A stretch of 64,000 nt of DNA from an uncultured Bacteroidales bacterium (lineage in GTDB: Bacteria; Bacteroidota; Bacteroidia; Bacteroidales; Bacteroidaceae), in NCBI GenBank assembly GCA_902763885.1, contig CACWTU010000004.1, forward strand, positions 62,001-126,000, read 5' to 3'. The stretch's first letter is position 1. Every line of letters starts with the position of its first letter. A program made the translations under genes and the position numbers. Positions 49,051 to 58,458 of the stretch are shown here, in pieces. The notes beneath the pieces were generated by a model. It was not told where the DNA came from, searched no databases, and worked only from the letters and a program-made list of their open reading frames with translations.

Positions 49051-51171
49051 TTAGGTATTAAAACCTATTCTGCCACTACCATCATGCAGTTTTTCTTCGT
49101 GGCAGAGCCTCTTAAGATCCTGAATCTCCGGCTCTTTACCACCAAGAACTTCCATGATGGTAGCCTTACGGACAATGTTATCTATTTCACCACCACTAAA
49201 ATTAAATGAAGTAGCCAATATCCCAGCGTTATCATCTGAGAGTGAAGGCATCTTGGAGAGCCATATGCTTTTCCTTGCTTCAAGTGTAGGTTTATCAAAT
49301 TTAATCTTAAACAAAAAGCGCCTTTCAAATGCTCCATCCAAGTTTTCGGCCATATTGGTAGTAGCAATCAATATACCGTCCAAACGCTCCATCTCTTCCA
49401 GAATAATGTTCTGAATCGTATTCTCAGTCTGTGCTACGTTAGAGGAATCGGTATCTTTACGTTTGGAAAAGATACCATCGGCCTCATTGAAAAGAAGAAT
49501 TGGCCGCATTTCACTATGCTCACATATATCTTCATACCTTTTAAACACCTCCTTTATGAGTTTTTCACTTTCTCCAAACCAGCATGACTTTGTTGAACTG
49601 ATATCAACATGATAGATGGCTCTACCTGTAGCCTTTGCCACCTGCATGACACTCTCCGTTTTACCTGTGCCCGGTGGTCCATATAAAAGCGCGGCTATTC
49701 CTTTCTGCATCCCCTTCTCTTCCAGTTGTTTTCGCAACTCCAAATAATTATTCTCCTCCAGACTTTTCTGTAAAAGACTCAGTTGTGCCTGAAGCCCATT
49801 GCTAAAATAAAGTTTCCTTTCTACTATCTTTTCCGGCAGGAAATAATCTTTACCCTGCATCTTCTCCATGAAATTCTTAGCATCGTCACCAAAGAAAAGC
49901 CGCTTTCCATTATCTGTTAGCGTTAAAACCGACTTATCAAAAAAGCCCTGCTTGCTACACTCCACCAGTTTTTCTTTCTGAAGCGGATGCTCCTGAGCCT
50001 TAAACATATGAGCCAGCCTCACTGACTGGGCCTTAGGATATATTTCTGATAAGTTTCCAAGTTGAAACGAATCATCTTCCATACATTCATAACAAACCAT
50101 ATAGAAAAGGAAACGATCCAGCGCATCATAATCCATTTCCAGTTTATTCACAAAATCAAGATGCTGATTGGACAACTCCAAACGGAACAACTTTTTCTTT
50201 ATTTCATCCGAGAATCCAGGCCTATCAGAATCGGCCTCCCTGTATATTTTCTTAATGGCCGATGCAAAACCATAGCAATCCAATCCTTCTATTGACTTAA
50301 TAAAAGCCTTAGCCTTATCTCTTAAAAACAACTTTATACCTTGATTAGTAAGTTTAACACTATTCTCCCCCACACCTTCTATCCATTCTTCCTTAATCAA
50401 AGGATTCTCCAACCCAATTATTGAGCTCCGATAAGTCAGACGGTCTCCAGGTGAATCAAAGACATCTTTAAGCAGTTCCGACAAATCGGTCATCTTATCT
50501 ATTCCAAATGTATAATCATCACATATTATGTAAAACAGCACCCTATTCTCACCACTTATCTCCTTATCCCGCAATGTCTTGATGATATCGAACGAAGCAA
50601 AAACCTCCTCCATCTGAATAATAGCGCCCAACAGTTCCTGAGTATCCAGATTCTCTTTCTTTCTGGAAGAGGCCAGAGCAGAAACGGCACGACAGAAATC
50701 AAATTGATCCTTCAACCTGCGTTTCTCCGGTTCACTTTTCTTATTCAGCTCTTTTCCTTGTATAATTGCCTCAAGAACCTTGATATTCACCCTGTACTTT
50801 CGTTTTAATAGAGAACAAAAAATACCGTTCTCCGAAGTCAGATAACCATTCTTTTCCAAGTCAGCCAAGTAACTATAGTACATCATGACATCCAGCACAG
50901 GGCAGTTAAAATAATCGGCAAGTTCAGTAATACCCGTTGAATTCTCAGTCAAATCACGATCGAAAACCGGAACAAACACCAGCGATTCCATCCCTTTCAT
51001 CCCTGTACACTGATTCAATCCCTTCAAAGCATCCATAGCCTTATTGATACTCTGATTAGTAAGCCCCCTGCCTTTCAGCATCTTTGACGCCGCGTGAATA
51101 CAATTAAAAGCACTGTATTTACCATCCGCTCCAATCAAACTGGCATGAGTATATGTGTATCTGTTTGTCAT
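49051..51171 (-). CDS. AAA+ ATPase with N-terminal helical region
   Basis: A 706-aa ATPase. A large N-terminal part (1-480) shows helical repeats and several winged-helix-like patches. The C-terminal AAA+ module has Walker A GPPGTGKT near 497-504, Walker B ILLFNEADG (Asn in place of the usual Asp, as in some members), a sensor-1 ATTN and an arginine finger in the ERRFLFKI stretch. A related group occurs widely in Bacteroides accessory regions, function unknown. A TAACTTTG -7 box lies at 51221-51228. Its neighbours are an unknown pair and a DUF6169-like pair, suggesting an accessory island. Confidence 0.85.
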   Translation of the reverse strand: MTNRYTYTHASLIGADGKYSAFNCIHAASKMLKGRGLTNQSINKAMDALKGLNQCTGMKGMESLVFVPVFDRDLTENSTGITELADYFNCPVLDVMMYYSYLADLEKNGYLTSENGIFCSLLKRKYRVNIKVLEAIIQGKELNKKSEPEKRRLKDQFDFCRAVSALASSRKKENLDTQELLGAIIQMEEVFASFDIIKTLRDKEISGENRVLFYIICDDYTFGIDKMTDLSELLKDVFDSPGDRLTYRSSIIGLENPLIKEEWIEGVGENSVKLTNQGIKLFLRDKAKAFIKSIEGLDCYGFASAIKKIYREADSDRPGFSDEIKKKLFRLELSNQHLDFVNKLEMDYDALDRFLFYMVCYECMEDDSFQLGNLSEIYPKAQSVRLAHMFKAQEHPLQKEKLVECSKQGFFDKSVLTLTDNGKRLFFGDDAKNFMEKMQGKDYFLPEKIVERKLYFSNGLQAQLSLLQKSLEENNYLELRKQLEEKGMQKGIAALLYGPPGTGKTESVMQVAKATGRAIYHVDISSTKSCWFGESEKLIKEVFKRYEDICEHSEMRPILLFNEADGIFSKRKDTDSSNVAQTENTIQNIILEEMERLDGILIATTNMAENLDGAFERRFLFKIKFDKPTLEARKSIWLSKMPSLSDDNAGILATSFNFSGGEIDNIVRKATIMEVLGGKEPEIQDLKRLCHEEKLHDGSGRIGFNT

Positions 51172-51220
51172 TTTTCCTTCAATAATATCTGCGGCAAGGT
51201 CGTCACAGAATTTCCACAGG

Positions 51221-51228
51221 CAAAGTTA
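51221..51228 (-). promoter_or_regulatory. -7 box of the AAA ATPase gene
   Basis: Minus-strand TAACTTTG, about 50 nt before the ATG. Confidence 0.45.
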
Positions 51229-51244
51229 TACCGCCATGAACAAC

Positions 51245-51267
51245 CCCTCCAAATCTCTGCAAGATCA
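51245..51267. repeat. Partial CCAAATCTCTGCAA palindrome
   Basis: Left half (CCCCTCCAAATCTCTGCAAG) of the palindrome also found at 52129-52163 and 55227-55270; the right half is missing. Confidence 0.6.
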
Positions 51268-51278
51268 AGCAAAAAAGA

Positions 51279-51385
51279 GTACCAAAGGGGACAGACCCCA
51301 ATGGTACCTTTTTTTCAAAAAATGATACCATTGGGGTCTGTCCCCTTTGGGATACCATTGGGGTCTGTCCCCTTTGGTATCATTT
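51279..51385. repeat. REP cluster with a tandem partial duplication
   Basis: Unit 51279-51307, then an inverted unit in which GATACCATTGGGGTCTGTCC...TTTGG is repeated twice (51326-51381). Confidence 0.9.
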
Positions 51386-51850
51386 TTATTCAGAACTCAG
51401 CAAATCATTACAATACTCATCCAATACCGCAATTAAACGCTCCTTATCAGGATTATCATCCCACACAAACAGCGACAGCACAAGATTATAGTCTTCAGTC
51501 CGACCACAACGATCAATCTTAATAAGTTCCGGCGGAGCATAAGACAAGTACCAAGACTCAAAAAGTCTCTTCCTTACCATTTCACGGCCATCCGATGAAT
51601 CGCACGTAATTAGCATTGAATCCAGATGATTCTGGAAAAACTTCACAAGAATAGCACAAATGGTATCGGACACATAAGCATCCACCATTCCATCCACCCC
51701 GGAATCGAGCCTGTCAAAATTAAAAGTGTAAAGATTGTCAGCAAAAGGGAGCTTCAAGAAATAAGCAACATAGGTAGCTCCCGAAGGTGTCTTAAAATAG
51801 TATTGGCCGTCTTCTACCCAATAATCATACGGGCGTAACGAACTCAACAT
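51386..51850 (-). CDS. DUF6169-like protein
   Basis: A 154-aa cytoplasmic protein resembling DUF6169 family members (YYFKTPSGATYVAYF near the N-terminus, ITCDSSDGREMVRKRLFESWY in the middle). I am moderately sure of the family; function is unknown. Its start overlaps by 26 bp a small ORF of 45 aa that precedes it (51825-51962), so they are likely coupled. The C-terminus ends at a REP. Confidence 0.55.
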   Translation of the reverse strand: MLSSLRPYDYWVEDGQYYFKTPSGATYVAYFLKLPFADNLYTFNFDRLDSGVDGMVDAYVSDTICAILVKFFQNHLDSMLITCDSSDGREMVRKRLFESWYLSYAPPELIKIDRCGRTEDYNLVLSLFVWDDNPDKERLIAVLDEYCNDLLSSE

Positions 51851-53929: not shown

Positions 53930-53948
53930 ATTGGATTAGAACCAACGT
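53930..53948 (-). pseudogene. tRNA T-arm remnant
   Basis: On the minus strand, TTGG-TTCTAAT-CCAA followed by TAGCGACC resembles the T arm and 3' acceptor strand of the tRNA at 54000-54070 (which has GTTGG-TTCGAAT-CCAAC). No 5' half found. Confidence 0.45.
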
Positions 53949-53993
53949 GGAAAATGTGGAATTGGAGCCAGTCCACAATTCCACATTTTCCAC
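53947..53993. repeat. 18-bp inverted repeat next to the tRNA-like gene
   Basis: GTGGAAAATGTGGAATTG (53947-53964) pairs with 53976-53993 around a short loop. Lies between the tRNA-Thr-like gene and the T-arm remnant. Confidence 0.7.
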
Positions 53994-53999
53994 ATTTTG

Positions 54000-54070
54000 T
54001 GGCCGCGGTTGGATTCGAACCAACGTATCGACATTACAAGTGTTGTCCTTTACCACTAAGGTACGCGGCC
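54000..54070 (-). tRNA. tRNA-Thr(TGT)-like, divergent
   Basis: Minus strand, 71 nt. Acceptor GGCCGCG/CGCGGCC (7 bp), D arm CCTT-AGTGGTA-AAGG, anticodon loop CTTGTAA (U33, anticodon TGT), T arm GTTGG-TTCGAAT-CCAAC. The anticodon stem CAACA/TGTCG has one A-C mismatch. No CCA is encoded. The sequence is unlike the usual bacterial tRNA-Thr, so it may be a mobile-element tRNA or a tRNA-like RNA. Confidence 0.6.
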
Positions 54071-54148
54071 GGGACCGGGATTCTTATCCTTCTTCCCGGC
54101 CCCCAGGTTGGTCGATAGGATACAGAGTATTTCAAGCTAATGCTGTCA

Positions 54149-54233
54149 GTCCATGATCTGCCAATTGATCTAACCCGCCATGTAATATATTGAACTAGAG
54201 GCGGGTGCGGGACTTGAACCCGCAGCCTTGGAC
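54149..54233 (-). tRNA. Candidate circularly permuted tRNA gene (3' half precedes 5' half)
   Basis: Read on the minus strand, the 3' half comes first: GTCCA (54233-54229), variable AGGCT, T arm GCGGG-TTCAAGT-CCCGC, acceptor ACCCGCC (54206-54200). A 20-nt spacer (54199-54180) follows, then the 5' half: acceptor GGCGGGT (54179-54173), TA, D arm GATC-AATTGGCA-GATC, A, then TGGAC (54153-54149). Acceptor 7 bp, D stem 4 bp, anticodon stem TGGAC/GTCCA 5 bp and T stem 5 bp are all perfect. The break is in the anticodon loop; the flanks also offer CTCTGT pairing with ACAGAG. No established anticodon can be read. Confidence 0.6.
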
Positions 54234-54378
54234 TCTCTGTCGAAACACTTAACCTCTGTAGAGCCTATTCTTTGAACCATAATGCAGAAGCTTTGGCACG
54301 ATGCTGATGCTTACACGCACCCCACCGGGATGCTAATAAAGCTAAGTCATAATGCTAACGCTGAACTGCCAATCAGAA
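54234..54378 (-). ncRNA. Leader of the permuted tRNA-like RNA
   Basis: A 145-nt stretch between the stop of the 268-aa gene and the tRNA 3' half, without an ORF. It contains repeated GCATTA and GCTTTATTAGCAT motifs and a CTCTACAGAG dyad. It is probably transcribed with the upstream gene. Nothing more specific is seen. Confidence 0.3.
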
Positions 54379-55185
54379 TCATTCGTTCCCGTAAAAGATA
54401 TACCCCAAAAACTTGTCAGTAGCAAGATTCGGTTCCATCGTCGGGGTATCATTCACTGTCTTGGTTGCCTCAATCACGGCACTGAGCAGCTTGCTAATGC
54501 GCTCCTGAACCAGTTGTTTCTGTCTGAGCGTCCACTCCCCCGAGAACTTCTGGGACGTATATGATCCTCTCTTAATTGTTGTCTTAACTTCCTTTGTAAT
54601 AGGCCGATAACCAGACGGCAGATGTTCCTTGTCGATATTGGGATCAAGCAGAATCTCAGTATCGGTAATGGTGGTAAAACTATCTCCTTCCAACAGTGGT
54701 GTCTCAAAAATATCGTCACGGCCCTCATAATCCTCATTGCCGCTGGCCTTCCAAATCTCGGAATCTGACCTGACAGGAATGTTAGCCACCAAATTCTTAA
54801 GGTTCTCATCCGTCAGGATATTCTTGAGCCTAAGCAATTCCGTGGCCGACAGGCTTCCCATATTAATCCCGTCCACAATAAAAGGTACCCGGGCCGAACC
54901 CGCAGAATTAGTAGCTTCAATTGAGAACTGATCCTTTAGATAAGGAGCCAAAGCCCTATCCATCAGCCGCTTGAGTTCTTCTGATACAGTAGCGGCCACC
55001 ACAGTATGCCCCATCTTAGTAGGGTCCTCCAGCTGACCTTCGGCCGCATGGAATGTCTTCTTTTCACCCTTAAATGAAGAGGTACTCCTCTTAAAAAACT
55101 CCCCCTGCTTGCGCAACGATTCCGTATAAACCGCCCGCTCATGCTCGGCCTTAGCCAGCGTAACATTCATCTTTTCCTGTGTCAT
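54379..55185 (-). CDS. Unrecognised 268-aa protein next to the tRNA-like cluster
   Basis: No family recognised. The start at 55185 (MTQEKMNVTLAKAEHERAV) is chosen because the longer frame to 55521 is translated from REP and palindrome repeats, and a TAATTTTG -7 box is at 55212-55219. The N-terminal half is helical and charged; the C-terminal part has conserved-looking blocks (YRPITKEVKTTIKRGSYTSQ, KFSGEWTLRQKQLVQERISKLL, KFLGYIFYGNE). No signal peptide or membrane segment. It is directly upstream of the permuted tRNA-like RNA on the same strand, so the RNA may be its partner or substrate (inference). Confidence 0.55.
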   Translation of the reverse strand: MTQEKMNVTLAKAEHERAVYTESLRKQGEFFKRSTSSFKGEKKTFHAAEGQLEDPTKMGHTVVAATVSEELKRLMDRALAPYLKDQFSIEATNSAGSARVPFIVDGINMGSLSATELLRLKNILTDENLKNLVANIPVRSDSEIWKASGNEDYEGRDDIFETPLLEGDSFTTITDTEILLDPNIDKEHLPSGYRPITKEVKTTIKRGSYTSQKFSGEWTLRQKQLVQERISKLLSAVIEATKTVNDTPTMEPNLATDKFLGYIFYGNE

Positions 55186-55211
55186 AGCGTTCGTTTTGAT
55201 GTTTCGTGAGG

Positions 55212-55219
55212 CAAAATTA
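55212..55219 (-). promoter_or_regulatory. -7 box of the 268-aa gene
   Basis: Minus-strand TAATTTTG, 27 nt before the ATG. Confidence 0.45.
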
Positions 55220-55226
55220 CGCCCAC

Positions 55227-55270
55227 CAAAACGCCCCTCCAAATCTCTGCAAACCTTGCAAAGATTTGGT
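55227..55270. repeat. CCAAATCTCTGCAA palindrome
   Basis: CCCCTCCAAATCTCTGCAAA and TTTGCAA-type arms; closely matches the copy at 52129-52163. Confidence 0.75.
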
Positions 55271-55370
55271 GCAGCCAAACACGCTGTACATCTTTTTTGC
55301 AGAATAAAGCATAGTATGAAGACCAAATCACTAAAAGAACAACTTGTCAAAGAGTGGGATGAGAATCCAT

Positions 55371-55472
55371 CGTACCAAATGGTACCAAAGGGGATACCAA
55401 AGGGGACAGACCCCAATGGTACCATTTTTGAAAAAAAGAGTACCATTGGGGTCTGTCCCCTTTGGTACTCTT
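55371..55472. repeat. REP cluster with partial duplications, inverted pair
   Basis: Starts with truncated direct copies (GTACCAAATGGTACCAAAGG, GGATACCAAAGG), then a full unit to about 55421 and an inverted unit 55439-55468. Confidence 0.9.
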
Positions 55473-55490
55473 TTGCTAACTTTGTGAACG

Positions 55491-56054
55491 ATGGATATAG
55501 AGACACATCCGTTTGAGCCATTTTTGCCTGAAAACGCCAGGATACTATTTCTGGGCAGTTTCCCGCCCCAGCCCCACCGCTGGAGCATGCCGTTCTATTA
55601 CCCCAACTGGATCAACGACTTCTGGCGCATCATCGGCCTGATACATTTCAATGATAAAGACCACTTCTGCATCATCAAAGAAAAACGCTTCAATGAGCAA
55701 GCCATAAAAGACTTCTGCACACAAAACGGACTGGCTTTCTACGACACCGCAACAGAAATCAGACGCCTAAAAGACAACGCCTCCGATGCCTTCCTAGACG
55801 TAGTAACGCCAACCGATATCCCCGCACTCCTCCAACAAATCCCCCTCTGCACCACCCTAGTAACCACCGGCCAAAAAGCCACAGAAGTCATCGCCAGCAC
55901 CTTCAACTGCCCCATCCCACCCATCGGCACCCACATAGAAATAAAAATCGGCACCCGCCCCATCAACTTCTGGCGAATGCCTTCAACCTCCCGCGCATAT
56001 CCGCTCCCGATAAACAAAAAAGCCGACGCCTACCGCCAGCTCTTCATAAAATGA
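55491..56054 (+). CDS. Uracil-DNA glycosylase superfamily protein
   Basis: A 187-aa DNA glycosylase-like protein. Motif 1 LFLGSFPPQPHRWSMPFYYPN includes the base-binding loop, and motif 2 is MPSTSRAYP near the C-terminus, in the position of the UDG-superfamily leucine-loop motif. It likely removes damaged or mispaired bases. Found as single genes in Bacteroidetes; not the canonical Ung. Flanked by REPs on both sides. Confidence 0.82.
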   Translation: MDIETHPFEPFLPENARILFLGSFPPQPHRWSMPFYYPNWINDFWRIIGLIHFNDKDHFCIIKEKRFNEQAIKDFCTQNGLAFYDTATEIRRLKDNASDAFLDVVTPTDIPALLQQIPLCTTLVTTGQKATEVIASTFNCPIPPIGTHIEIKIGTRPINFWRMPSTSRAYPLPINKKADAYRQLFIK

Positions 56055-56087: not shown

Positions 56088-57317
56088 TTAAAGTTTGCCC
56101 TGCTCACCAAGGTAAGAATCCTTGAAGCCAAGGAAATAGAGAACGCCATCAAGGCCGATAGTGTTGATGCTTTGCTCGGCGGTTGCAACCACGCGCGGTT
56201 TTGCGTGGAAAGCAATACCCAGACCCGCCTCCGATATCATCGGCAGATCATTTGCCCCATCACCCACAGCAATAGTCTGAGCCAGATTCACCTTCTCCAC
56301 CTGAGCAATCAAATGCAGCAATTCAGCCTTCCGATGCCCATCCACAATCTCGCCCACATATCGCCCGGTCAGTTTGCCGTCCTCGCCTATCTCAAGCTCG
56401 TTAGCATACACATAATCAATGCCATACCGCCGCTGTAAATACTCGCCAAAGAACGTAAATCCGCCGCTCAAAATCGCGATCTTGTACCCGCAGGTTTTCA
56501 AAACAGACATAAGTCTATCCACGCCCTCAGTCATTGGCAAATGTTCAGCAATCTCACGCATCACGCTGACATCCAAGCCTTTAAGCAACGCCACACGACG
56601 AGTAAAACTCTCCTTGAAATCAATCTCACCGCGCATCGCGCTCTCAGTAATAGCGCGAACCTGGGCACCCACGCCATTGCGCTCGGCCAATTCGTCAATA
56701 CACTCGGTCTGAATGAGCGTAGAATCCATATCAAAGCAGATTAACCGCCTCATTCTACGGAACATATCATCCTTCTGGAACGAGAAATCCATCTCCATCT
56801 GCTGCGAAATCTTCATCAGCTCAACATGCATCTTCTGCCTGTCCACCGGCTCGCCGCGCAAAGAAAATTCAATGCAAGCACGCGTCTGCTTATCAAGTTT
56901 TTTAATACTTTTCCGACCCGTAAGACGAAGAATAGAATCAATATTAAGCCCCTGATCAGCAAGAATTTGAGTAGCTGCCTGAATCTGCCGAGCCTCAAGT
57001 TGACGCCCCAGCACAGTCAAAATATACCGGTTCTTACCCTGATGCCCTACCCAATCCTCATACTCATCGTCGCTAATCGGAGAAAAACCGATATTCACGC
57101 CCAGCTCCGTAGCCTTGAACAGCAGCTCCTTCATAGCAAGGCCGCTCTTCATCTCGTCCATGCGCATTAAAATGCCCAATGAAAGCGTGTTATGAATATC
57201 AGCCTGGCCGATGTCCAGCACCGTAGCATCGTACCGCGCCAAAATCCCCATGACCGCAGCCGTCAGTCCCGGCCGGTCCTGTCCCGTAATCCTGATTAAA
57301 ATCTGCTCCTCTTTCAT
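56088..57317 (-). CDS. serB: Phosphoserine phosphatase with N-terminal ACT domains
   Basis: A 409-aa HAD phosphatase that makes serine from phosphoserine. Two ACT-like domains (LIRITGQDRPGLTAAVMG and YILTVLGRQLEARQIQ), then the HAD core with DMDST (196-200; nucleophile Asp196), SGG in AILSGGFTFF, and GDGANDLPM. ACT domains suggest feedback control by serine. ATG 57317 chosen over a GTG at 57323. Confidence 0.94.
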   Translation of the reverse strand: MKEEQILIRITGQDRPGLTAAVMGILARYDATVLDIGQADIHNTLSLGILMRMDEMKSGLAMKELLFKATELGVNIGFSPISDDEYEDWVGHQGKNRYILTVLGRQLEARQIQAATQILADQGLNIDSILRLTGRKSIKKLDKQTRACIEFSLRGEPVDRQKMHVELMKISQQMEMDFSFQKDDMFRRMRRLICFDMDSTLIQTECIDELAERNGVGAQVRAITESAMRGEIDFKESFTRRVALLKGLDVSVMREIAEHLPMTEGVDRLMSVLKTCGYKIAILSGGFTFFGEYLQRRYGIDYVYANELEIGEDGKLTGRYVGEIVDGHRKAELLHLIAQVEKVNLAQTIAVGDGANDLPMISEAGLGIAFHAKPRVVATAEQSINTIGLDGVLYFLGFKDSYLGEQGKL

Positions 57318-57338
57318 ACCCACAAATATAGCAAAAGA

Positions 57339-57418
57339 GTACCAAAGGGGACAGACCCCAATGGTACCTTTTTTTCAAAAAATGATACCATTGGGGTCTG
57401 TCCCCTTTGGTACACTTT
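57339..57418. repeat. REP inverted pair
   Basis: Units 57339-57367 and 57384-57413 separated by a T/A-rich spacer. Located between serB and the phytase-like gene. Confidence 0.92.
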
Positions 57419-57426
57419 TGTATCAT

Positions 57427-58458
57427 TTACCTAAAAACTATTACCTTGACAAAATCCTTAACCACCCCGCCGGCCCCATGCTGAGAATCCGAAATCAGAA
57501 TCAGTGACCGCCCGCCGTCCGGTATTAAAGGCCCCAGGCACATCCCCTCATAATCAGCAAAGCGGCCCGATGCAGGCTTAGTCGTGAAACTGCACATCAG
57601 CGTCTTGCTCAAAACTTCCGATGCCCCAACGACAGGTTTCACCACATAAAGATTCACCCTACAAAATGACTTCCTTAACTTCCCCAAAACGCCCCCCTTA
57701 GGCACAAACACCTCACGCTCCAAAACGATCAGCCGCCCGTCATCGAGAGCCGTCAGCGCAGGCACCCCAAACACATATGACTCCGCCAAAGCAGCCTCAG
57801 CCTCACTCTTCATCGGCCTGTCCATCTGATACAAAAACCTGCCCGCAGGCCGCAAATCGGCCCCGAAACTCTGCAGCCGCAACAGACCGGCATCCAAAGA
57901 AGCATCCTCAAGCAGCACATCCTCTGTAGTAGTCCAAAACAACCCCGTGAACTCATTGTAAGTCAGCGCCTCAAAGCCCCTGTTGCTCTTAATCTTGCCC
58001 CGAGCCATATCATTGGGAACCGCTAAAAAACGCCCCGTAGGCACCCCGTCCAGCCCATACTCCCTGATAGACTGATCCGCCTCCGCGCTCACAAACAGCG
58101 TCCCAGCCCCAAAAGAACCGGCCCTATAAGCCACCCCCTCATTGTCCCTATCGCTAATGTCCGATGACACCGTCCCCTCAGGAACACTCACCGAAACCTC
58201 CTTAACCTTACCGCTTAAATTAACGTCCATGTCCACCAGCACGATCCCGCCGCCACGCCTCTTGTCATCCACCACCGCATACCGAGTCCCGCCCAGATAC
58301 GTGATGCCCGAATAATCACCGCTCCCCATCTGAGCCGTCACCTTCTTAACATCGGCCTCAATCACAGTCCTGAACCCATAATCACGCTCCTTCAGCTCCG
58401 CCCCCTCATCGCCGGGCGGAATGATGAAACATGACGTCAATAACAAACTCCACAACAT
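57427..58458 (-). CDS. Esterase-like activity of phytase family lipoprotein
   Basis: A 343-aa lipoprotein (LLLTSC near the N-terminus; start at 58458). The body is a beta-propeller of the phytase-like esterase family, with YSGITYLGGTRYAVVDDKRRGGG, DNEGVAYRAG, SNRGFEALTYNEFTGLF and DYEGMCLGP repeats. Substrate unknown. Its start lies 14 bp downstream of the MGMT-like gene's stop, so they may be in one operon. Confidence 0.8.
   Translation of the reverse strand: MLWSLLLTSCFIIPPGDEGAELKERDYGFRTVIEADVKKVTAQMGSGDYSGITYLGGTRYAVVDDKRRGGGIVLVDMDVNLSGKVKEVSVSVPEGTVSSDISDRDNEGVAYRAGSFGAGTLFVSAEADQSIREYGLDGVPTGRFLAVPNDMARGKIKSNRGFEALTYNEFTGLFWTTTEDVLLEDASLDAGLLRLQSFGADLRPAGRFLYQMDRPMKSEAEAALAESYVFGVPALTALDDGRLIVLEREVFVPKGGVLGKLRKSFCRVNLYVVKPVVGASEVLSKTLMCSFTTKPASGRFADYEGMCLGPLIPDGGRSLILISDSQHGAGGVVKDFVKVIVFR

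Follow-up and report, generated by a model that had tools for sequence, protein, structure and literature searches.

A permuted tRNA-like RNA encoded beside DUF7873 genes of phages and a rumen Bacteroidales lineage

Permuted tRNA genes of algae and archaea carry the two halves of a tRNA in inverted order with a linker between them and yield decoding tRNAs, and tmRNA, which is charged with alanine, is marked by A73 and a G3-U70 pair. To our knowledge, permuted tRNA-like genes are rare and comprise the decoding tRNAs of some algae and archaea, tmRNA and Y RNA. In permuted tmRNA (RF01849-RF01851, RF04321) the gene form is likewise 3' part, linker and 5' part, and the transcript is cut by tRNA-processing enzymes into two base-paired pieces, as stated in the available excerpt of PMC11915505. 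YrlA (RF02553) is described in the excerpt of PMC8394870 as having a tRNA-like domain with T arm, acceptor and D arm, closed off by a stem in which the two ends of the RNA pair; the permuted order can be read from its Rfam alignment, and Rsr and PNPase are named as its partners (excerpts of PMC8394870 and PMC7790460). Lak megaphages, in which the RNA described here occurs as well, are a further source of unusual tRNA-related sequences: the portion of Devoto 2019 (PMC6784885) at hand deals with introns inside tRNAs and mentions no permuted tRNA-like RNA, the word "permuted" occurring 0 times in the main text of the paper. Among the matches listed from open-licence papers, no title or beginning of an abstract concerned a permuted phage or bacterial tRNA-like RNA, and no open-licence paper on DUF7873, the protein encoded next door, was found. 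The RNA family is apparently undescribed.

The locus lies in a window of 64,000 nucleotides, the whole stretch of DNA that was analysed, from an uncultured Bacteroidales bacterium. On the minus strand, at 54233-54149, a tRNA 3' half is followed by a linker of 20 nt and a tRNA 5' half, and the two halves form 21 of 21 stem pairs, all of them Watson-Crick. The elements of this core are:

54200-54233, minus strand: tRNA 3' half (anticodon-stem 3' strand, variable loop, T arm, acceptor 3' strand)
54233-54229, minus strand: anticodon-stem 3' strand GTCCA
54223-54207, minus strand: T arm GCGGG TTCAAGT CCCGC
54206-54200, minus strand: acceptor 3' strand ACCCGCC
54180-54199, minus strand: linker, 20 nt, starting with T73-C74 (TCTA)
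54149-54179, minus strand: tRNA 5' half (acceptor 5' strand, D arm, anticodon-stem 5' strand)
54179-54173, minus strand: acceptor 5' strand GGCGGGT
54170-54155, minus strand: D arm GATC AATTGGCA GATC
54153-54149, minus strand: anticodon-stem 5' strand TGGAC

The permuted gene order and the full 21-pair cloverleaf, both proposed in an earlier note on this DNA, were borne out. With a finder script for permuted tRNAs the core scored 27.5, and 60 dinucleotide shuffles of the 64-kb window gave nothing comparable, their maximum being 23.5 and none reaching 24. ARAGORN and Rfam at the gathering score left the core undetected, the sole report at this place in the window being an ordinary tRNA-Thr at 53999-54070. 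After rotation of the halves into normal order, for which four plus three real flanking bases were kept inside the loop and a CA end was added, ARAGORN called a tRNA in 18 of 18 RNAs (the window and 17 homologues); in the genomic, permuted order it called one in 0 of 18. Because the window core escapes both programs, the RNA may be overlooked elsewhere.

Homologues were segmented in 18 RNAs, i.e., the window, three bacterial, two Lak and 12 IMG/VR sequences, and covariation between the halves was analyzed in the 16 loci that remained when two near-duplicates were left out. Acceptor and anticodon stems formed 190 of 192 pairs, and the best of 20,000 re-pairings between loci reached 146. In an alignment of 14 cores, restricted to linkers of up to 26 nt, the acceptor and T helices were 99.4% paired with both-sided changes at 11 of 12 pairs, and the covariation score was 0.812 as compared to 0.182 when shuffled (0/500) and at most 0.116 when slid; in reading these values it has to be considered that the finder placed the halves by requiring complementarity, the loci themselves having mostly been found through the protein. 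The assumption of the note that the two halves belong together is supported by this covariation of their stems in homologues.

The core is embedded in a larger non-coding RNA gene just downstream of the DUF7873 gene on the same strand. Between 54110 and 54290 the RNA is 91-93% identical in two congeners, and the homologues were aligned. From 5' to 3' it consists of a domain with helix P1 and a hairpin, the first strand of helix P2, the permuted core, the second strand of P2 and a 3' hairpin:

54379-55185, minus strand: DUF7873 (PF25283) gene, 268 aa, probable start MTQEKMNV (Pfam E 1.9e-24)
54071-54372, minus strand: whole non-coding RNA gene, about 300 nt (ends inferred, from the start of P1 to the nucleotide preceding the tRNA gene)
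54368-54372, minus strand: helix P1, 5' strand TTGGC (covariation)
54317-54333, minus strand: hairpin of the 5' domain, GCATCCC-GGT-GGGGTGC (read from sequence and alignment, no statistics)
54293-54297, minus strand: helix P1, 3' strand GCCAA (covariation)
54254-54260, minus strand: helix P2, 5' strand TACAGAG (covariation)
54121-54127, minus strand: helix P2, 3' strand CTCTGTA (covariation)
54075-54099, minus strand: 3' hairpin with loop GAAGGATAAGA (read from sequence and alignment)
53999-54070, minus strand: tRNA-Thr gene, anticodon TGT, directly downstream of the RNA (ARAGORN, Rfam)

With strands chosen by eye, P1 comprised 87 of 90 possible pairs in 18 loci (L053 and L055 included, two near-duplicates dropped) and P2 107 of 112 in 16 loci (L037 and L059 further omitted); for each helix 0 of 10,000 permutations equalled these values. 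Automatic searches for P2 gave weak signals, both unanchored (own mean 17.0 vs. 15.2 for swapped strands, sd 2.6) and anchored by a regular expression (at least 6 in 10/16 own and 45/240 swapped combinations). The outer pairing of ACAGAG and CTCTGT suggested in the note (54259-54254 with 54127-54122) turned out to be part of the covarying helix P2; at one position of this pairing the three closest genomes have A-U, U-A and the mismatch A-A, the last in G033. The hairpin of the 5' domain occupies the place of a CUAG-type loop of many phage homologues. The loop of the 3' hairpin corresponds to GAAGGATATTGA in many phages, several of which have a T run after this hairpin.

Six-base repeat blocks lie between the elements of the RNA and follow the pattern AGCNTT in the Bacteroidota-type RNAs, where mean identity was 0.375 at lag 6, 0.318 at lag 12, 0.291 at lag 7 and 0.228-0.261 at the other lags. 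TCAAAC-like repeats are visible by eye in the Rhizobium and Vibrio RNAs; identity at lag 6 was 0.265 and 0.287 in two Rhizobium RNAs and 0.347 in the Vibrio RNA, for which lag 4 was higher. A six-base period stands out in the Bacteroidota-type RNAs and is weaker in the two Rhizobium ones.

The listed ORF of the DUF7873 gene extends to 55521 with an unrelated N-terminal stretch, and the bacterial homologues, which are 88-91% identical, begin at MTQEKMNV. Within seven of the ten bacterial sequences dN/dS was 0.02-0.06 in 19 of 21 pairs (dS was saturated in the other two), and judged from these ratios the gene is under strong purifying selection among the seven. An AlphaFold2 model of the window protein, based on an alignment of 23 sequences (pLDDT 86.4, pTM 0.73), predicts long helices and a long beta hairpin. 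Comparison of this model with the PDB and with viral models by Foldseek yielded no significant match (best E 0.022 and 0.027), the best match of the protein sequence in the PDB had an E value of 0.48, and a PHROG search with P0001 gave no match at E up to 1. CRISPR Cascade subunits, which appeared among chance-level fold matches, were not counted, and neither was a weak match of L061 to an RNA-binding PHROG (E 0.0029). Since no significant fold match was obtained, RNA binding by DUF7873 is a guess; gene linkage is the observation that would make the protein the partner of the RNA.

Of 37 genomes of the genus, three, including the window's own, contain the RNA region as judged by DNA similarity, and the same three carry DUF7873, the only ones to do so among 399 genomes of the family; among 395 genomes of the phylum it was found in the window's own only. 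A scan of named genomes with DUF7873 yielded nine contigs of rumen Bacteroidales, G012 and G033 among them, each of which has the RNA some 100 nt downstream, and in all 10 bacterial contigs found via DUF7873 (the window and 9/9 others) the permuted RNA lies downstream on the same strand, three of these ten (window, G012 and G033) having served to build the search model R1. The linkage of RNA and DUF7873 is partly given by construction, because homologues were reached via the protein next door, apart from the Lak and two bacterial loci, which were reached via R1 or DNA similarity. Many of the homologous loci, though not all, have a tRNA gene after the RNA. The body of this downstream tRNA is kept and its anticodons vary according to ARAGORN (TGT in the window, AGT in L028, GCA in L024 and L026).

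The note had described the permuted gene as one of a bacterium. The bacterial locus is real, and this description is too narrow, since phages hold most of the loci found. DUF7873 was present in 16 IMG/VR contigs, two of them Lak-like, and all of the other 14 carry the permuted RNA downstream on the same strand. Of 12 phage loci, model R1 by itself recovered the RNA in seven and missed it in L051, L053, L054, L055 and L037: L037, with 6 of 7 acceptor pairs, was located by the first finder, L051 and L054 by a finder with a looser T loop and a longer linker, and L053 and L055 required a still longer linker. In Lak megaphages both genes are present and unlinked; DUF7873 was found in 15 of 15 records and the RNA once in each of the 15, many of these records being near-identical. 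Here the RNA does not directly follow DUF7873, lies far away from it elsewhere in the same genomes and adjoins tRNA genes in the two records inspected.

With more divergent queries the number of phage records matching DUF7873 rose to 57 and then to 88 (E up to 0.001), with Vibrio, Rhizobium, Gordonia, Klebsiella, Serratia, Arthrobacter, Rhodococcus and cyanobacteria as hosts besides those of Lak phages. The permuted module was present in seven of seven cultured-phage loci examined, in one of them weakly: RHph_TM16, RHph_Y1_11, RHph_TM30, Vibrio K479, Gordonia Phendrix, Rhodococcus NiceHouse and Pseudanabaena PA-SR01. Downstream of the DUF7873 gene, these loci have a stretch in which annotated ORFs are absent or small, an annotated tRNA gene comes after this stretch in six of the seven (the exception is PA-SR01), and each module beats all 300 mononucleotide shuffles. 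PA-SR01 represents the weakest case, because a convincing module was obtained only from a wider stretch and not from a narrower one. The anticodon stem has four of five pairs in L056, RHph_TM16 and RHph_TM30. By eye, the permuted module is present as a tandem pair in NiceHouse, Phendrix and perhaps PA-SR01. Within Vibrio, 29 records match DUF7873 and 29 match the RNA region of K479 (two separate, uncompared lists), and blastn with the core of RHph_TM16 retrieved two Rhizobium records only. Pattern scans of IMG/VR with RNA motifs returned two, zero (with a mis-spaced pattern) and two contigs. The two contigs from the last of these scans, L064 and L065, had no DUF7873 in the available stretch, and the look-alike in L065 was rejected as, by eye, two adjacent ordinary tRNAs. 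As homologues are found in cultured Gordonia, Rhodococcus, Rhizobium and Vibrio phages, the function of the RNA is directly testable.

The 3' end of the permuted domain resembles that of an ordinary tRNA gene. Base 73 is T and base 74 is C in all 18 RNAs, and among 68 distinct ordinary tRNAs near the RNAs 58 end at C74 and nine encode CCA. In Vibrio K479, which has A73, the permuted 3' half ends with ACCA, and four of five plain ARAGORN tRNA genes encode CCA too; in two Rhizobium phages, which have G73, the half ends with GCCA and the single adjoining tRNA of each is without encoded CCA. Linker lengths are 7 nt (Phendrix), about 20 nt, 59-72 nt, 203 nt and finally 313 and 403 nt in L053 and L055. 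The linkers of these last two phages contain an ORF for a very basic protein of 56-57 aa between the tRNA halves (L053:4723-4893, L055:4754-4927), so that a protein gene lies within a split tRNA; its products gave no PHROG or Pfam match at E up to 1. Despite the long linkers, the acceptor stem is complete in both (7/7 pairs), with a compensatory change between the two. Because some linkers encode CCA or hold a small protein gene, we infer that the linker is cut out.

The reading we favour, and regard as fairly probable, is that of a phage-type non-coding RNA family with a permuted tRNA-like domain, which is cut into two pieces and works together with DUF7873 as a non-decoding tRNA mimic. Sequence comparison shows the permuted order, all four cloverleaf stems (acceptor, T, D and anticodon), the outer helices P1 and P2, and the DUF7873 neighborhood. 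Linker cutting, binding of DUF7873 to the RNA and action as a tRNA mimic are steps we propose on this basis. A single transcript would be cut in the linker by tRNA-processing enzymes, presumably RNase P for the 5' half and RNase Z or exonucleases for the 3' half, and CCA would be added where it is not encoded. What results would be an RNA of two pieces, joined by base pairing in the acceptor stem, the anticodon stem and P2, whose acceptor end is free and resembles that of a tRNA. The DUF7873 protein may bind this RNA, perhaps via the six-base repeats, and the particle would act as a decoy, a regulator or a scaffold for a tRNA-handling protein without decoding. A point against the two-piece step is that an uncut, closed acceptor loop as in YrlA would tolerate many linkers too. 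The pair of RNA and DUF7873 looks like an undescribed RNA-protein partnership. If the favoured reading is true, the RNA represents a separate class of permuted tRNA-like RNA, mainly of phages, frequently adjacent to tRNA genes and accompanied by a protein of its own that has no recognised fold.

A more specific version of this reading can be put forward tentatively. DUF7873 and one to two split modules may form a widespread phage RNA-protein machine, the 3' hairpin loop AAGGATATTG of which would pair with the phage's own unusual long-armed tRNAs (up to 14 consecutive pairs, in L059); it would process, protect or regulate phage or host tRNAs and would have been adopted by one rumen Bacteroidales lineage. 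Between the loop of the 3' hairpin and a nearby long-armed tRNA, 10-14 bases pair in L051, L052, L056 and L059 (at most 4 of 200 shuffles were equal). The pairing is weaker in L057 and L058, where 9 and 14 of 200 shuffles were equal, and there was nothing in L036, L047 and L054; with nine phages tried and the tRNA chosen by hand, these values are a lead only. Long-armed phage tRNAs with CUAG-containing loops (ATCCTAGA or TTCTAGG) were observed in L035, L038, L040, L051, L052 and L058, and these loops resemble the hairpin loop of the RNA's 5' domain.

Less likely than either version is a tRNA mimic of the Y RNA type that stays uncut, the linker remaining as the loop of the acceptor arm, the tRNA-like domain docking on another protein and the stem binding DUF7873 instead of Ro60/Rsr. 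The topology of YrlA is the same, with a permuted tRNA-like domain on a stem, and under relaxed thresholds the YrlA model provided the best sub-threshold full-model Rfam match (54246-54126, 31.6 bits, gathering score 69). Linkers near 20 nt are common. Of 14 control genomes, that of Deinobacterium chartae alone encodes DUF7873, and it alone encodes a TROVE (Ro60-type) protein. However, two adjacent ordinary tRNAs in the window's genome (G000 C1:7490-7608) reach 27.1 bits with the same model, a trap for searches of this kind, and because of this the YrlA score alone is no proof of kinship. TROVE (Ro60/Rsr) was found neither in the window's genome, which is 90.9% complete, nor in 19 phage records, some of which are fragments. 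Compared to YrlA, the RNA further differs by its conserved tRNA-like 3' end, long linkers and complete anticodon stem, and the encoded CCA, the conserved T73-C74 and the gene-holding linkers make little sense for an RNA that remains uncut. Identity with Y RNA was rejected on the basis of the score below gathering, the lack of a TROVE match in the window's genome and the 19 phage records, and the 27.1-bit control.

It is unlikely that the RNA is a relative of permuted two-piece tmRNA that acts, with or without a tag frame, on stalled ribosomes. The gene form is that of permuted tmRNA, and the cutting into two pieces described for the latter in the excerpt of PMC11915505 is what we presume here as well. 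Weak tmRNA matches were obtained in L036 (23 bits, E 1.7e-5) and L051 (17.5 bits, E 0.15), and the phage contig L061 has a tmRNA gene above the gathering score (54.8 bits, L061:2545-2945) immediately upstream of DUF7873. Yet wherever the RNA was scanned, Rfam tmRNA families stayed below their gathering scores (47 and 84), the best value in the window being 14.1 bits. The G3-U70 pair is present in 0 of 18 RNAs and T73 in all 18 Bacteroidota-type members, and both a full, normal D stem and a 5-bp anticodon stem are formed. To the eye, the repeat blocks of the flanking domains seem open over short stretches without a common frame, and no consistent tag frame was recognised. The DUF7873 neighbor and the tandem modules in two actinophages (by eye) are further differences to permuted tmRNA. 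Low scores, T73 and the missing G3-U70 pair led us to discard identity with tmRNA. A group I intron or permuted intron-exon arrangement was discarded as well, no model having matched in six phage loci (E up to 0.5) or around the window RNA (E up to 10).

It is even less probable that the gene is a true permuted tRNA gene, whose transcript is spliced or circularised into a decoding tRNA. The cloverleaf is complete, all 18 RNAs pass as tRNAs with ARAGORN once rotated, and Lak phages are reported to have tRNA introns (excerpt of PMC6784885). Position 33, however, is T in only 9 of 18 RNAs and G in the window, and for this reason a decoding tRNA is unlikely. The rotated forms carry differing anticodons, including AAT, ATG and TTA, which depend on the chosen joint, and there is no common anticodon. 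Inverted halves with a linker are shared with the permuted tRNA genes of algae and archaea; unlike in these, the anticodon loop does not resemble that of a tRNA, and conserved helices and domains of the RNA of about 300 nt surround the anticodon stem. The working tRNA implied in the note was not supported. Chance, or decayed remnants of tandem tRNAs, can practically be neglected: permuted look-alikes do arise between adjacent tRNA genes (C1:7490-7608 and L065), but no full tRNA in the window, flanking ones included, supplies either half, the arrangement is conserved and the stems covary across phages of distant hosts, and 0 of 60 shuffled windows contained a comparable structure. The RNA is real and conserved, it is not an ordinary tRNA, and by the tests made it is neither Y RNA nor tmRNA.

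Several further observations were made in the course of the analysis. Just past the tRNA-Thr gene, at 53946-53994, lies a near-perfect inverted repeat with arms of about 19 bp. A dispersed short repeat, whose translation reads like PLGSVPFGIP or KGTDPNGT, is located between genes of the window (51094-51522, 55331-55588, the N-terminal part of 54379-55521, and 57199-57507) and seems to lengthen ORFs artificially. Near DUF7873, sub-threshold matches to freshwater-1 RNA were found at L051:542-602 and L058:4929-4987 (54.3 and 49.6 bits, gathering score 72). The phage contig L053 contains a tRNA array (L053:400-1300), where short inverted arms with the constant motifs ACAGCAAA and TGATAAG flank whole tRNAs or halves of them. 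Within this array, at L053:770-907, there is another permuted-looking tRNA piece with encoded CCA.
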